A stretch of 64,000 bases of DNA. Origin: Plantactinospora soyae. GTDB lineage: Bacteria > Actinomycetota > Actinomycetes > Mycobacteriales > Micromonosporaceae. The notes beneath the pieces are model-generated. The model saw only the letters and a list, made by a program, of their open reading frames with translations, searched no databases and was not told where the DNA came from. Position numbers and translations under genes: made by a program. The stretch is from contig NZ_JADBEB010000001.1 in NCBI RefSeq assembly GCF_014874095.1, positions 9,610,001 to 9,674,000 of the forward strand, in the 5' to 3' direction. This document shows positions 979 to 41,994 of the stretch, one piece after another. Position 1 is the stretch's first letter. Each line of letters begins with the position of its first letter.

Positions 979-1076
979 CCCGGGACTCGGCCACGCCTCG
1001 GCCGCCCGGGACTCGGCCACGCGTCAGCCGCCCGGTAGTCGGCCACGCGTCAGCCGCCGGAGTCGGCCAGTTCGGC
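979..1076. repeat. 26-bp tandem repeat spanning the 3' end of dusB
   Basis: Three 26-bp units (979-1004, 1005-1030, 1031-1056) and a partial fourth follow one another. The dusB stop codon lies in the third unit (1050-1052). The second unit repeats the same TGA context at 1024-1026, and in the first the TGA has become CGA. The array therefore looks like tandem duplication of the last bases of dusB, stop included, into the downstream spacer. Confidence 0.8.
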
Positions 1077-2243
1077 GCCGGCCGGCACCTCGTCGCTGTC
1101 CCGGTCCGCCAGCCAGCCCTCCGGCAGGTGGACCTTGCCGGGCGAGTTCGTCCGCCCCCGGGGCTGGCCGAGCGTCTCGACCGGAAACGGCTCGGCCGGA
1201 TCGAGCTTGCCCAGCAGATCGTCCAGTTCGGTCAGACCGCTCACCATCGCCAGCGCCCGGCGCAGCTCACCGCCGACCGGGAAGCCCTTCAGGTACCAGG
1301 CCACGTGCTTACGGAAGTCCACACATCCGTCCCGCTCGGCGGTGTCCGGCCGGTCCCCTCCGGCGAACCATTCGACCAGCAGCTCGGCGTGCCGGCGCAT
1401 CGTCACCGCGACCTCGCCGAGGGCCGGCAACTTGCGTACGTCCCGGCCGTCGAAGGCCGCCGCCAGATCCGCGAAGAGCCACGGCCGGCCCAGGCAGCCA
1501 CGGCCGACGACGACGCCGTCGACCCCGGTGTGCGCCACCATCCGGAGCGCGTCGTCTGCCTCCCAGATGTCCCCGTTGCCCAGCACCGGTACGTCGAGCG
1601 CCTGCTTCAGCGTGCCGATGGCGTCCCAGTCCGCGGTGCCGGAGTACCGCTGCGCGGCCGTACGCCCGTGCAGGGCCACCACCGCCGCACCGGCGTCCTG
1701 CGCGGCGAGCCCGGCCTCGACGTACGTCAGATGGTCGTCGTCGATGCCCTTGCGCATCTTCACCGTCACCGGCACCCCGGCCGGCGCGGCCGCCTGCACC
1801 GCCGCCCGGACGAGCCGGGCGAACAGCCGGCGGCGCCACGGCAACGCCGCCCCACCGCCCTTGCGGGTGACCTTCGGCACCGGGCAGCCGAAGTTCAGGT
1901 CGATGTGATCGGCCAGGTTCTCCTCGACCACCATCCGCACCGCCGCCGCCGTCACCGCCGGATCGGTCCCGTAGAGCTGGAGGCTGCGCGGCCGCTCGTC
2001 GCCGTCGAACGCGATCATCCGCAGCGTCTTCGGATTCCGCTCCACCAGCGCCCGCGTCGTCACCATCTCGCAGACGTAGAGCCCGCCACCCTGTTCACGA
2101 CAAAGACGCCGAAACGCGACATTCGTTATCCCCGCCATCGGCGCCAGCACCACCGGCGGCCACACCTCGTGCGAGCCCGCAAGGAAGGGCCCCTTCTTAT
2201 CGTTTTCAGTAGAAGAAGGGCCCCTTCTTAACTGCTCACCCAT
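1050..2243 (-). CDS. dusB: tRNA-dihydrouridine synthase (DusB-like), with repeat element inside its N-terminus
   Basis: This FMN enzyme reduces uridine to dihydrouridine in the D-loop of tRNA in the cytoplasm. Family motifs run in order: VVLAPMAGITNVAFRRLC (FMN site), DLNFGCPVPK with the catalytic Cys, VTVKMRKG with the active-site Lys, ALHGRTAAQRYSG, VLGNGDIW and VVVGRGCLGRPW. The ATG at 2243 is chosen because GGAAGG lies about 7 bases upstream. Between MGEQLR and GSHEVWPPVV the gene reads straight through a palindromic repeat (2181-2231) that adds the peptide [15 protein letters not shown], absent from ordinary DusB N-termini as I know them. A GTG just after the insertion could be used instead but has no clear ribosome site. 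The 397-residue length is otherwise normal. Confidence 0.93.
   Translation of the reverse strand: MGEQLRRGPSSTENDKKGPFLAGSHEVWPPVVLAPMAGITNVAFRRLCREQGGGLYVCEMVTTRALVERNPKTLRMIAFDGDERPRSLQLYGTDPAVTAAAVRMVVEENLADHIDLNFGCPVPKVTRKGGGAALPWRRRLFARLVRAAVQAAAPAGVPVTVKMRKGIDDDHLTYVEAGLAAQDAGAAVVALHGRTAAQRYSGTADWDAIGTLKQALDVPVLGNGDIWEADDALRMVAHTGVDGVVVGRGCLGRPWLFADLAAAFDGRDVRKLPALGEVAVTMRRHAELLVEWFAGGDRPDTAERDGCVDFRKHVAWYLKGFPVGGELRRALAMVSGLTELDDLLGKLDPAEPFPVETLGQPRGRTNSPGKVHLPEGWLADRDSDEVPAGAELADSGG
2181..2231 (-). repeat. palindromic hairpin element, copy A, inside dusB
   Basis: Two GC-rich arms built on AAGGGCCCCTTCTT flank a short T-rich loop (TATCGTTTTCAGTAG on the plus strand). The core closely matches copy B at 3306-3354, in opposite orientation. 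The dusB frame passes through the whole element without a stop. Related copies are at 14435-14502 and 40557-40604. Confidence 0.85.
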
Positions 2244-2349
2244 AGCAGACCTTCCGCCATCCCGGTGCGTCGTGCACAGCACCCCTGGTTATCCACAGCC
2301 TTCGCAAAACGGCCCTGCCACGGTACGTGACCTCGGGCAGCCTGCACCA

Positions 2350-3393
2350 ATGACCACAGCGAGCCAAGACCATGATCCAGAACCGGACATCGAGGAACTT
2401 GCCGCCCGTCAACAGCAGATCGTGACCCGGCGCCAGCTACACGGCGCCGGCATCGACGACATGCACATGTACCGCCAGACCCGGCGCGGTCGGTGGCAAC
2501 GCGTCCTGCCGGCGACGTACGCGCTCGTGAGCGGCACGCTCACCGACGAGCAGCAACGCATCGCCGCCGCACTCTACGTGGGTCGGAGCGCGCAGATCAC
2601 CGGCCTGGCGGCCCTGCACTGGTACGGATTCCGCTACTCGCCGAAGGCGGACCGGATGCGCCTGCTCGTTCCGCACACAGCGCGCCGCGCCTCGGCCGGG
2701 CATGTGGTGGTGTGCCGTGCTCTCAGCCTGGACGAGTACGCCCGCGACGGCGGTCTGTACCGGATCTGTTCACCCGCACGCGCGGTCGTCGACGCCTGCC
2801 GGGAACTGCGCGATCTCCGTACCGTGCGGTCGGTCATGGCCGAGGCGATCCAGCGCGACTTCACCGATCTACCGACCCTCGACGGGGAGGTGGTTCGCGC
2901 GGGCCGCAGCCGTACGGCGCTGGTCAGGCAGGCGTTCAGAGAGGTCCTGCACGGCGTACGGTCGTCGCCGGAGGCGGAGCTGCGGGTGTGCCTCGCCGCG
3001 AGCCGCGAGCTTCTCGAGATCGTCTGGAATCCCCGGTTGCTCGGCCCGGACGGCTCCCGCCTGCCCACCCCGGACGGCTACCTCGCGGACGCCGCGATCG
3101 CGCTCGAGGTCGACTCGCAGGAGTTCCACCTGGCCCCGGCCGACTGGCGTCGCACGATGGACCGGCACAACGAACTGAGCCGGTACGGAGTGCTGGTCCT
3201 GCACTTTCCGCCGAGTCAGATCCGGCGGGAACCGGAGCGCGTCCGTCACCTGGTGGAGGACGCGTACCGGTCCCGCCGGGGGTACGGCGCCACGTGCCAG
3301 GTGTTAGTAGGGGGCCCTTCTTCTACAGAAAACGATAAGAAGGGGCCCTTCCTTGCACCACCTCAGCAGCCGGGGAGGCGCTCGATCAGGTAG
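2350..3393 (+). CDS. AbiEi-like / DUF559-type endonuclease-fold protein with repeat-derived tail
   Basis: The N-terminal half ([45 protein letters not shown]) resembles the winged-helix region of AbiEi-type antitoxin proteins. The C-terminal half, around [17 protein letters not shown] and [16 protein letters not shown], resembles DUF559 proteins of the Vsr/PD-(D/E)xK nuclease fold. Such proteins are common in actinomycetes and their role is not settled; no toxin partner adjoins it. The ATG at 2350 is preferred over an upstream start at 2272 because the extra residues look non-conserved. After CQVLV the frame runs into palindromic element copy B, gaining [15 protein letters not shown] and then residues read antisense from the glyS 3' end. 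It therefore overlaps glyS tail to tail by 31 bases. Family assignment is moderate. Confidence 0.75.
3306..3354 (+). repeat. palindromic hairpin element, copy B
   Basis: Arms GGGCCCTTCTT and AAGAAGGGGCCC surround a loop containing GAAAACGAT. The element lies within the last codons of the upstream plus-strand gene and nine bases beyond the glyS stop on the minus strand. It could therefore also act as a transcription terminator for glyS. Confidence 0.85.
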
Positions 3394-4742
3394 GACTCGA
3401 CCTGGGAGAGGGAGACCCGCTCCTGGGCCATGGTGTCCCGGTTCCGGACCGTGACCGCGTCGTCGTCCAAGGTGTCGAAGTCGACCGTCACGCAGAACGG
3501 GGTGCCGATCTCGTCCTGGCGGCGGTAGCGGCGGCCGATCGCCTGGGAGTCGTCGAACTCGACCGCCCAGCGCTTGCGGAGGGCGGTGGACAGGTCCCTC
3601 GCCTTCGGGGAGAGGGCGGGGTTGCGGGACAGTGGGAGGACCGCCACCTTCACCGGCGCCAGGCGCGGGTCGAGGCGCAGCACGGTGCGCTTGTCCACCC
3701 CGCCCTTGGTGTTCGGCGCCTCGTCCTCGTCGTACGACTCCAGCAGGAAGGCGAGCACCGCCCGGGTCAGGCCGGCGGCCGGCTCGATGACGTACGGCAC
3801 CCAGCGCTCCTGCTTCTCCTGGTCGAAGTACGACAGGTCGACGCCGGAGTGCTTGCTGTGCGTGGAGAGGTCGAAGTCGGTACGGTTCGCGATGCCCTCC
3901 AGCTCGGAGAACTCGGTGCCACCGAACCGGAAGCGGTACTCGATGTCCACGGTCCGCTTCGAGTAGTGCGAGAGCTTCTCCTTCGGGTGCTCGTAGAACC
4001 GGAGGTTCTCCTCGGACAGGCCGAGGTCGAGGTACCAGTTCCAACGCTCCCGCAGCCAGTACTCGTGCCATTCCTCGTCGCTGCCGGGCTCGACGAAGAA
4101 CTCCATCTCCATCTGCTCGAACTCCCGGGTACGGAAGATGAAGTTGCCCGGGGTGATCTCGTTGCGGAACGACTTGCCGGTCTGGGCGATGCCGAACGGC
4201 GGCTTCTTCCGGGCCGAGGCGGCGACGTTGTTGTAGTTGACGAAGATGCCCTGTGCGGTCTCCGGCCGGAGGTAGTGCAGGCCCTCCTCGCTCTCCACCG
4301 GACCGAGGTAGGTCTTCATCAGGCCGTTGAACATCTTCGGCTCGGTGAAAGTGCCCTTGTTGCCGCAGTTCGGGCAGTTCAGCTCGGCCAGCGAGGCCGG
4401 CGGCTGGCCGTGCTTCTCCGCGTACGCCTCTTCGAGGTGGTCGGCCCGGAACCGCTTGTGGCAGGACTGGCACTCGGTCAGCGGGTCGACGAACGCGTCG
4501 AGGTGGCCGGAGGCGGCCCAGACGTCCCGGGAGAGGATGACCGCCGAGTCCAGGCCGACGATGTCGTCGCGCTGCTGCACCATGGTCCGCCACCACTGGC
4601 GCCGGACGTTCTCCTTCAGCTCCACGCCGAGCGGACCGTAGTCCCAGGCCGACCGGGTGCCCCCGTAGATCTCGCTGGACGGGAAGACGAAGCCTCGACG
4701 CTTCGCGAGACTGACGACGGCGTCGATACGGTCGGCTGGCAT
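3363..4742 (-). CDS. glyS: glycine--tRNA ligase, single-chain dimeric type
   Basis: This cytoplasmic class II synthetase charges tRNA-Gly. The N-terminal part shows [22 protein letters not shown] zinc-ribbon insertion has two Cys pairs, CQSCHKRF and CPNCGNKG. Motif 2 is in [20 protein letters not shown], and the region [20 protein letters not shown] follows. The C-terminal anticodon-binding domain includes [20 protein letters not shown]. At 459 residues it has the usual length for the alpha-2 type. The ATG at 4742 follows an excellent AGGAGGT ribosome site. A hairpin element lies just past the stop. Confidence 0.97.
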
Positions 4743-14434: not shown

Positions 14435-14502
14435 CTGAGGTGTGAGGAAGGGCCCCCGCATATCGTTTTCTGTTGTAGCGGGGGCCCTTCCTCACACCTC
14501 AG
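14435..14502. repeat. palindromic hairpin element, copy C (25-bp perfect stem)
   Basis: Arms at 14435-14459 and 14478-14502 are perfect reverse complements over 25 bases. They enclose an 18-base loop with ATCGTTTTCTGT, the same loop core as copies A and B. The inner arm sequence differs from A, B and D (CCCGC instead of CTTCTTA-type bases), and the partner arm changes to match. It lies upstream of the acyl-CoA dehydrogenase gene. Confidence 0.92.
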
Positions 14503-40425: not shown

Positions 40426-40556
40426 GGGTCGGGCCCGAGGCCCTGTGCCACCTGCTTCCGATCTCGGCGCCGCGCCTGGTGGCGCGACGTGCTGACGTTG
40501 CAGTCATCGTATCCGTTCAACGCCGACGGCACGCTGCCCATTTCCGCCCGGCGGTT

Positions 40557-40604
40557 AGGAAGGGCCCCTTCTTATACAAAAAGCGATAAGAAGGGGCCCT
40601 TCCT
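40557..40604. repeat. palindromic hairpin element, copy D
   Basis: A perfect 18-bp stem (AGGAAGGGCCCCTTCTTA at 40557-40574, partner at 40587-40604) encloses a 12-base loop, TACAAAAAGCGA. The arms equal those of copies A and B but the loop is diverged. It begins one base beyond the stop of the minus-strand serine hydrolase gene, so it may serve as its terminator. Confidence 0.92.
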
Positions 40605-40605
40605 T

Positions 40606-41994
40606 TCATCCGAAGGTCTCCTGGGAGCGGGTGAAGCGGTAGGTCGCCCAGTGCATCTTGATCACGTTGCCGTGTTCCTCGTCGCGGGTGAGGCGGAGGA
40701 GTTCGCCGGTTTCGCGGCCGGAGATCGTGCGGAGAATGTCGGGGCGGTCCGGGAGGGGTTCGAAGATCGCTGGGGGCTTGCCGGCGGGGTCGGCGGCGCC
40801 GCGGGCCTGGAGGGTGCCGTCGCGCCAGGAGAAGACGTATTCGAAGCCCTCGCCCCACCAGCGGCCGAGCAGTCCCCGGTACGCCTCGGGGGCGGGCTCG
40901 CCGGGGGTCCAGGGTTCGATGTCGGCGGGGTCGTCCCGGGCCGAGGCGGCGAGCAGTTGGTGCGACAGTTCGTTCACCGCGACCCCGGTGCCGGAGGAGC
41001 CGAGCACCGCACAGCCCATCGCGCCGGGCGTACCGGCACCGCCGCGCCGGCCGTAGACGCTGGCCAGGAAGCCGGGCATGGCGCCGTCGTGGCCGACGTG
41101 CAGCACCCGCTCACCGGCGACCGACCGGGAACCGCCGGACCGGTCACCCTGGGGCACCAGGATCAGGCCGAGTCCGAAGCCGGCGCCCCAGAGCACCTCG
41201 TCGGTGACCGTCAGCGGCCAGCGCATCTCGTCGAGGGTGGCCGGCCGGAGCACCGCGCCGGCCGGGTCCAGTGCCGCCGGGTCGGCCAGGAAGGCCGCCC
41301 AGCGCGCCATGTCGGAGGCGGTGCTCCAGAGCTGTGCCGCCGGCCCGAGCGCGCCGAGGTCGGTGTTCGGCTCCGGCCGGGCGTGGTCGGAGTACGGGTC
41401 CACCAGGAACCCGGTCGCCGACTCCGGTCCCGGGGCGAGGCTGGTGTCGGCGAGCCCGAGTGGGCCGAGTACCCGGTCGGCGAGCACCTCGGCCCAGGTT
41501 CCGCCCCGGATCCGCGCGACGGCCTGGCCGAGCAGCGCCGCACCCAGGTTGGAGTAGTGGAACCGCCGGGCCGGTGGCAGCACCCGCTCGGCCCGGGCCA
41601 GGTCGGCGAGGAACTCCTCGAGTCGCGGGGTGTGCAGGGTGTCCCAGATGTCGCCGTACGGCTCGCGCTGCACGCCGGAGGTGTGCGACAGCAGCCGGCG
41701 TACGGTCAGTTCGCCGTGCTCGGGCACGTCGAGGTGCGCCCCGATCGGGTCGTCCAGGTCGAGCAGGCCCTCGTCGCGGCACTGCAGCACGAGTACGGCG
41801 GTGAAGGTCTTGGTGACCGAACCGATCCGGAACGTCGTCCGCTCGTCCAGCGGTGCCGCGCTGCCGGTGGACCCCACCGTGCAGGTCCACGGCGCACGGT
41901 CGGCACGGTGCAGCGCGACGGAGACCGCCGGTATCCGCGACTCCACCTGCGCCTGCCGGACCATCCGCCCGAACTGTCGACCCACCTCGGTCAC
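40606..41994 (-). CDS. class C beta-lactamase-like serine hydrolase
   Basis: A 462-residue protein of the penicillin-binding/beta-lactamase class C superfamily. The nucleophile motif SxxK is in RIGSVTKTFTA, the Tyr motif in FHYSNLGAALLG, and the third motif is HVGHDGAM (H-x-G). RLLSHTSGV is also typical. The last 100 residues form an added domain (EAYRGLLGRWWGEGFEYVF). No signal peptide is visible, so it is probably cytoplasmic, like many esterase or D-aminopeptidase members. The GTG at 41994 has GAGGGGG upstream. Confidence 0.9.
   Translation of the reverse strand: MTEVGRQFGRMVRQAQVESRIPAVSVALHRADRAPWTCTVGSTGSAAPLDERTTFRIGSVTKTFTAVLVLQCRDEGLLDLDDPIGAHLDVPEHGELTVRRLLSHTSGVQREPYGDIWDTLHTPRLEEFLADLARAERVLPPARRFHYSNLGAALLGQAVARIRGGTWAEVLADRVLGPLGLADTSLAPGPESATGFLVDPYSDHARPEPNTDLGALGPAAQLWSTASDMARWAAFLADPAALDPAGAVLRPATLDEMRWPLTVTDEVLWGAGFGLGLILVPQGDRSGGSRSVAGERVLHVGHDGAMPGFLASVYGRRGGAGTPGAMGCAVLGSSGTGVAVNELSHQLLAASARDDPADIEPWTPGEPAPEAYRGLLGRWWGEGFEYVFSWRDGTLQARGAADPAGKPPAIFEPLPDRPDILRTISGRETGELLRLTRDEEHGNVIKMHWATYRFTRSQETFG

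Follow-up and report, generated by a model that had tools for sequence, protein, structure and literature searches.

A dispersed hairpin repeat that appears to encode the N-terminal residues of DusB in Plantactinospora soyae, and an adjacent AbiEi-like gene that may maintain it

RAYT genes have either REPs or terminal inverted repeats at their sides, and REPs of the CGTC type seem to be without a dedicated transposase, as set out in the passages of the source cited here (PMC3733652). EDxHD is named as a family of homing endonucleases in the portion of another source relied upon (PMC6083498). The present locus brings together a dispersed hairpin repeat, the tRNA dihydrouridine synthase gene dusB and a divergently oriented single gene, and lies in a 64-kb window of the genome of Plantactinospora soyae (G000; 9.7 Mb, one contig), to which all positions refer (Table 1). 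In this genome, DusB seems to begin with residues encoded by the repeat, the start of the gene having moved upstream over the repeat. The explanation that we consider rather probable joins this shift of the dusB start, over a copy flanking the neighbouring gene, to a repeat population that is kept or spread by that gene. Among the open-licence papers listed, none described this pairing of gene and repeat, as judged by titles and the openings of abstracts.

Table 1. Features of the dusB region and of the repeat copies in the 64-kb window.
Feature	Position	Strand	Remarks and basis
dusB (tRNA dihydrouridine synthase B)	1050..2243	-	ATG 2243 to stop; reading, Pfam/NCBIfam, model
Hairpin repeat core at dusB, 54 nt	2179..2232	-	with arms about 68 nt (2172-2239); encodes DusB residues 5-22 in frame
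Ribosome-site-like GGAAGG	2250..2255	-	6 nt before ATG; direct reading
DnaA-box-like TTATCCACA	2289..2297	+	dusB/divergent-gene intergenic region; reading
Divergent gene, candidate mobiliser	2350..3393	+	AbiEi-like N-terminal part, Vsr/homing-endonuclease-like C-terminal domain; Pfam, model, fold search, alignment
Second repeat copy	3303..3356	+	3' end of divergent gene, beside convergent glyS-like end; encodes C-terminal tail
glyS-like gene (presumed name)	3363..4742	-	adjoins dusB upstream in congeners G002-G004, which are without the cassette
Fourth repeat copy, divergent	14442..14495	-	
Third repeat copy	40554..40607	+	

The product of dusB matches its family strongly (Pfam Dus, E 2.3e-88; NCBIfam DusB, E 1.5e-107), and the frame from ATG 2243 runs free of stops through the repeat into the DusB body. 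Both the in-frame reading of the hairpin element and the good ribosome site in front of the ATG, as given in a preliminary description of this DNA, were recovered, whereas the element does not follow six codons and add 15 residues, as stated there, but has a core that begins after four codons and encodes 18. By reading, no ATG, GTG or TTG lies in frame inside the element, and translation is predicted to begin at ATG 2243.

The consensus of the repeat core, drawn from a non-random sample of 41 copies (those of the window together with those in fetched loci), is GTTAGGAAGGGSCCCTTCTTCTACARAAARCGATAAGAAGGGGCCCTTCCTTRC, with outer arms CTGAGGT/ACCTCAG. A BLAST search of the whole genome with the dusB repeat gave 40 matches (40 of 201 candidates scored; best non-self E 4.7e-19), and half-sites with up to 2 mismatches number 597, as against 1 for the reversed control pattern; the repeat at dusB is thus not a chance occurrence, and its earlier designation as a multi-copy palindrome stands. 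Sampling found 4 copies in 120 kb in addition to the 4 of the window. A strand bias suspected from the listing of half-sites was dropped, as both orientations are present among the 40 BLAST matches. The dusB copy folds as a DNA hairpin (z -4.25; none of 200 shuffles as good), and the best-preserved copy of the window (the fourth of Table 1, folded as 14435-14502) has a perfect 25-bp stem and an 18-nt loop (z -13.4). Each unit consists of two inverted palindromes, and the units are dispersed and mostly extragenic, as in REPINs. With coding calls taken from a home-made score of G+C by codon position and not from annotation, 18 of the 41 copies lie between convergent and 17 between codirectional genes; the others are 2 between divergent genes (dusB being one), 1 in the C-terminus of the divergent gene, 2 inside coding sequences and 1 unassigned. 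The 3' end of a called gene is within 25 nt of 35 of the 41 copies. Away from dusB, the repeats would mostly be placed at stop codons, with rare copies in frame within proteins.

At orthologous sites the repeat is present in some congeners and absent in others. Site E2 carries it in G000 and G001, and none is recognisable in the other five congeners; site E6 carries it in G000, G001 and G006, is empty in G005 and has no repeat in G002-G004. At site E5 it is found in G000 and G001, and a divergent repeat is found in G004, which is without the divergent gene. The spacer orientation at E5 (L103, orthologs L271 and L273) is opposite between G000 and G001.

Judged from sequence, true in-frame inserts of the repeat do exist elsewhere in G000, in 2 of 30 loci (L105-L134) and in unrelated proteins. 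One (L113, 1467-1520) is in frame inside an MBL-fold hydrolase, at a turn between two strands; of the three PDB alignments shown, one ends ahead of LGRGPSSTKSDKKGPFLQTD and the other two place 19 residues of it in gaps. The other (L134, ~1467-1520; at ~3.06 Mb of G000) occupies, again in frame, the linker of a helicase-nuclease (UvrD_C + PDDEXK_1); among the congeners compared (G002-G006), G006 has a related repeat peptide and G002-G005 have other linkers. The analogy with the palindromic elements of Rickettsia, drawn in the preliminary description, therefore holds for the repeat family, which appears to behave in an RPE-like manner on rare occasions, but not for an insertion at dusB. In a scan of 20 loci fetched for long open frames (19 from G000 and 1 from G001, with L350 left out), no locus showed coding signal both before and after the repeat, and one (L379) has a repeat-encoded C-terminal tail. 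Such tails are also seen where the C-terminus of the divergent gene product runs into the 3' repeat (L195-L197, L226, L233, L236); in the model of the G000 protein, the tail encoded by the second repeat copy is part of a stretch with pLDDT < 50 (residues 327-347).

The history of the dusB copy was followed by comparison of the 5' region of dusB in 67 loci, 7 from genomes of the genus and 60 from the family, the latter chosen by us, mostly as repeat-rich genomes or near relatives, among the matches listed (297 of 300 genomes matched). The comparison of DusB N-termini that had been suggested earlier indeed separates loci with the repeat pair (35 of 67) from loci without, with the element mostly outside the coding frame. 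Of the 31 element-bearing loci outside the genus, 30 have a stop in the dusB frame within the repeat or beyond it, the exception being G283, whereas within the genus the frame is open in all 4; as G283 is open outside the genus, an open frame alone proves little. Downstream of the repeat, TACACT followed by GTG ~6 nt later is present in 31 of the 35 element-bearing loci, and is read, from sequence, as a putative leaderless promoter and start of dusB. The congener G005 is among them: its old start is intact, with TACACT-7-GTG after the element, and its upstream ATG does not share the dusB frame. The motif is missing in G000, G001, G006 and G016; by reading, G016 has a different box and an ATG lying further downstream. 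Three of the 7 genomes of the genus (G000, G001 and G006) share an ATG, preceded by a ribosome-like site, from which the frame stays open across the repeat, and the distance from this ATG to the DusB body differs by multiples of three. There is no repeat at dusB in G002-G004, where the glyS-like gene lies directly upstream. The closed frames outside the genus, the old start in G005 and the shared in-frame ATG of G000, G001 and G006 argue that the coding sequence grew upstream over this old repeat, which is a flanking copy of the divergent gene. The ancestral start would have been the GTG ~6 nt after the TACACT box, leaderless and downstream of the repeat; in the lineage of the window genome it would have decayed, translation moving to the upstream ATG with its ribosome-like site. 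Through this shift, evident in the sequence and presumed for translation, the repeat would have become coding.

The consequences for the protein are suggested by the DusB model (mean pLDDT 78.9; residues 1-15 with pLDDT < 50), in which strands 20-22 (FLA, repeat-encoded) and 25-27 (HEV) form an N-terminal hairpin. Many relatives have LxLG or LxIG at the position of the N-terminal strand, and LGLG or LELG is still present after the repeat in G001 and G006. The G000 sequence is 15 nt shorter than that of G001 and the old LxLG piece is gone; this shortening removed the LxLG strand, such that the last codons of the repeat (Phe-Leu-Ala) replace it. As modelled, the repeat-encoded FLA supplies the first strand of the N-terminal hairpin of DusB in G000. 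The dusB locus would then be a case in which a repeat turned into protein through loss of a downstream start and not through insertion, its codons taking the place of a conserved strand.

Two other accounts of the dusB copy may be weighed against this start shift. The preliminary description held that a mobile palindrome had jumped into an existing dusB coding sequence and was tolerated there as an insert that keeps the frame. The open frame across the repeat in G000, G001 and G006 is as such a jump would leave it, and the copies in the MBL hydrolase and the helicase-nuclease illustrate that the same repeat can be accommodated in proteins; yet 31 genomes from outside the genus carry the repeat at the matching position upstream of the start, 30 of them with a closed frame, and G005 keeps the old start downstream of it. 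These sequence comparisons largely refute an insertion into dusB, which we regard as very improbable. It may instead be supposed that the repeat is still 5' untranslated, DusB starting at GTG 2165 (MWPPVVLAPMAG), and that the open frame is an annotation trap. According to the part of the REP literature cited, misannotation may make extragenic REPs look like part of N-terminal coding regions (PMC3733652), and in G005 the start does lie downstream of the repeat. Initiation at GTG 2165 would, however, cost DusB both strands of the modelled N-terminal hairpin, and this GTG, by reading, lacks a good ribosome site as well as a TANNNT box, whereas the upstream ATG and its ribosome-like site are kept in frame in three genomes whose lengths differ by multiples of three. 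An untranslated repeat in G000 is thus unlikely, though less so than an insertion, and the upstream shift of the dusB start remains our preferred reading.

The divergent gene that shares this intergenic region has an above-threshold Pfam match to AbiEi_4 (E 4.6e-8); REase_MTES_1575 (E 0.0027) falls below its cut-off, as do AbiEi_1 and two others at E ≤ 1, and at this same limit neither Y1_Tnp nor a known transposase domain was matched in Pfam. Its model (pLDDT 89.0) resembles the AbiEi antitoxin 6y8q (E 1e-5) and Rv2827c (1zel, E 2.4e-4) in fold. The C-terminal domain matches the catalytic domain of I-Bth0305I (3r3p) moderately (E 0.017; TM by target 0.68-0.70). We take I-Bth0305I to be a member of the EDxHD family. 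In an alignment of 42 homologues, E208 (40), D/E247 (40), E253 (40), D255 (39) and H260 (39) are conserved, and 9 of 28 homologues from the class deviate at one or more of the catalytic-like sites. The gene has one match at E ≤ 1e-20 in G000 (7 of 26 candidates scored).

Within 1.6 kb of dusB, the divergent gene is found in 37 of the 67 loci, with repeat half-sites near both of its ends in 36 of these and both halves at both ends in 34; in G276 the near 3' copy is missing. The repeat pair at dusB follows the gene closely, being present in 35 of the 37 gene-bearing loci, the remaining 2 of which retain a single recognisable half, and absent from all 30 loci without the gene. The intergenic region has further conserved motifs. 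DnaA-box-like TGTGGA in the 260 nt before the DusB body occurs in 35 of 37 gene-bearing loci (at least two in 26), in 1 of 30 others and, for a control stretch taken from the same 37 loci, in 9 of 37; the longer TGTGGANAA in 24 of 37, 0 of 30 and 0 of 37, respectively; and TGTGNTAYG in 35 of 37, 0 of 30 and 0 of 37. The motif at 2289-2297 resembles a DnaA box, and it is a guess that expression of the divergent gene is linked to replication.

Across the family, the gene was scored as present by a match at E ≤ 1e-20, and genomes with at least 20 half-sites (our cut) were considered repeat-rich (55 of 300). The gene is found in 46 of these 55 genomes vs 19 of the 245 others; within genus g4, 30 of 32 genomes with the gene are repeat-rich vs 4 of 74 without. 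The Fisher values, compiled by hand (9e-20 for genus g4, 9e-30 for all genomes), are not corrected for ancestry, which the genomes share, and so overstate the association. Three of the 46 gene-bearing repeat-rich genomes have a damaged gene, with the match in two pieces in G146 and G279 and the middle missing in G090. Nine repeat-rich genomes are without an ortholog. By profile search, short C-terminal pieces persist in G124 (E 7.4e-8) and G135 (E 1.8e-11) besides distant paralogs, distant paralogs alone are found in G041, G091, G116, G174 and G202, and G103 and G234 have no homologue at E ≤ 1e-5. In the gene-bearing G297, which is repeat-poor by pattern, the repeats are of a separate variant (a sample of 240 kb gave 5 copies and no G000-type copy), and the gene-less congener G004 has, besides the divergent repeat at E5, 1 divergent copy in 280 kb sampled, which the counting pattern missed; zero counts therefore understate, and low counts mean few copies, not none.

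Diverged homologues of the gene often have flanking repeats of their own. In the family, similarity between 5' and 3' flanks exceeds 200 shuffles at 13 of 21 loci, some of the repeats being of a GGGSCCC type and others of different sequence; the negatives are L228 (contig end), L230, L231 (3/200), L235, L239, L241, L243 and L244. In the class Actinomycetes, under a rule of score ≥ 24 with at most 1 of 100 shuffles, related repeats are found on both sides at 20 of 28 loci vs 8 of 120 control genes from eight genomes; the class negatives are L278, L281, L286, L287, L291, L292, L297 and L301, and L284 passed on a tandem-like array. At a score of at least 35, the counts are 11 of 21 for the family, 15 of 28 for the class and 1 of 120 for the controls. 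Five of 14 in-family paralog loci (L304-L317) passed the flank test, one of the 14 having too short a flank. At least one flank copy folds as a hairpin (z < -2.5) in 12 of the 13 family loci and 10 of the 20 class loci, and both copies do so in 6 and 6. The notion that all class flanks are hairpins was dropped, since neither copy reaches z < -2.5 in 10 of 20, and those that do not fold look like terminal inverted repeats. Also rejected was the idea, raised by the unflanked L230 and L239 with LDEID, that intact catalytic-like residues are a condition for flanking: in the class set these residues are intact at 13 of 20 flanked and 6 of 8 unflanked loci.

Of four class genomes sampled over 100 kb each, two had one cognate repeat apiece away from the gene, and the single cross-match in other genomes is weak (E 0.008). 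TGATCA...TGATCA hairpins occur in 9 of 45 genomes searched, with 1 to 90 on each strand and 0 for the control; the hairpins of G055 look like another family. G055 contains 53 copies of TGATCAAGGGA-N-TCCCTTGATCA (e.g. C1:249681-249736); the copies listed span 56 nt, with a variable, non-palindromic middle, and look like a different repeat or regulator site. By eye, otherwise unlike flank repeats at class loci L276-L303 share a centre (e.g. CTATAG, CTAGATCG, CTATTGG, GCATAGGCG), which might be a recognition core.

In the explanation that we favour, the dusB palindrome would be one member of a population of hairpin repeats of ~54-68 nt, most likely maintained or spread by the single-copy gene beside dusB through its AbiEi-like DNA-binding part and its Vsr/EDxHD-homing-nuclease-like domain. 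The two copies beside this gene would be its own flanking repeats, and the gene itself is probably inherited vertically at this place. The predicted nuclease would cut at the hairpin or its target and repair would copy the repeat; mobilisation by the gene product, including binding or cutting of its cognate repeat, is what we infer from structure, position, co-occurrence and presence or absence at orthologous sites. More tentative, and falling slightly short of an even chance, is the extension to a class-wide family in Actinomycetes, selfish or domesticated, in which a repeat-flanked AbiEi-Vsr-type nuclease gene spreads repeats by homing-like cut and repair. The class flanks that do not fold and the repeats in the gene-less G004 slightly lowered our confidence in both the favoured explanation and its class-wide extension.

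The same observations may be viewed otherwise. Were the repeats bidirectional terminators or regulator sites, with the gene encoding their binding protein or being an unrelated resident, their closeness to the 3' ends of called genes (35 of 41) would be expected; the repeat-free orthologous sites of relatives, the repeats on both sides of the divergent gene, the other flanking repeats often seen with diverged homologues and the copy inside the folded domain of the MBL hydrolase all run counter to such a role, which we hold to be improbable. To much the same degree we doubt a view of the gene family as an ordinary insertion sequence, bounded by terminal inverted repeats and with the dispersed copies as its MITEs. 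The inverted orientation of flank repeats in most positive loci and the half of the positive class loci whose flanks do not fold do fit an insertion sequence, but the gene is single-copy in the group of the window genome and stays beside dusB in 37 of 67 loci, unlike a jumping element; known transposase domains are absent from it in Pfam, and eight loci (L229, L238, L240, L277, L293, L298, L299 and L303) have repeats in direct orientation with at least one copy folding as a hairpin. Maintenance or spread of the repeats by the neighbouring gene would, if true, constitute an analogue of the REPIN-RAYT system in which a restriction/homing-endonuclease fold stands in for the HUH transposase and the repeats can turn into protein sequence. 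A pairing with an unrelated nuclease-like protein would mean that REP-like populations arose more than once, and it offers an enzyme-substrate pair that is directly testable.

Among known systems, the likeness to REPINs and RAYTs, as portrayed in the sections cited, lies in the two inverted palindromes per unit, their high copy number and mostly extragenic position, their occurrence beside a single-copy gene, repeats that differ by gene lineage and occasional intragenic copies (PMC3116915, PMC3733652). The present gene differs in being AbiEi-like and Vsr/homing-nuclease-like without a Y1/HUH transposase match, and no GTAG or CGTC tag was noted in the repeat by eye. An N-terminal AbiEi_4 match and the 6y8q fold are shared with the AbiEi antitoxin of the AbiE type IV toxin-antitoxin system, as far as the cited part of its description extends (PMC3985639); in contrast to AbiE, there is no adjacent toxin gene, the divergent gene standing alone between the divergent dusB and the convergent glyS-like gene, and an extra nuclease-like domain and flanking repeats are present. 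I-Bth0305I appears to be similar in fold to the C-terminal domain, in which E/D/E/D/H residues are conserved, whereas no intron was seen here and the predicted nuclease is fused to an AbiEi-like part. With the palindromic elements of Rickettsia, in the excerpted account (PMC10969869), the repeat has in common that dispersed palindromes lie in frame inside unrelated proteins; it differs in being shorter (18-19 codons), in its placement mostly at stop codons and in its unrelated host, and at dusB the start appears to have moved upstream over the repeat in place of an insertion.
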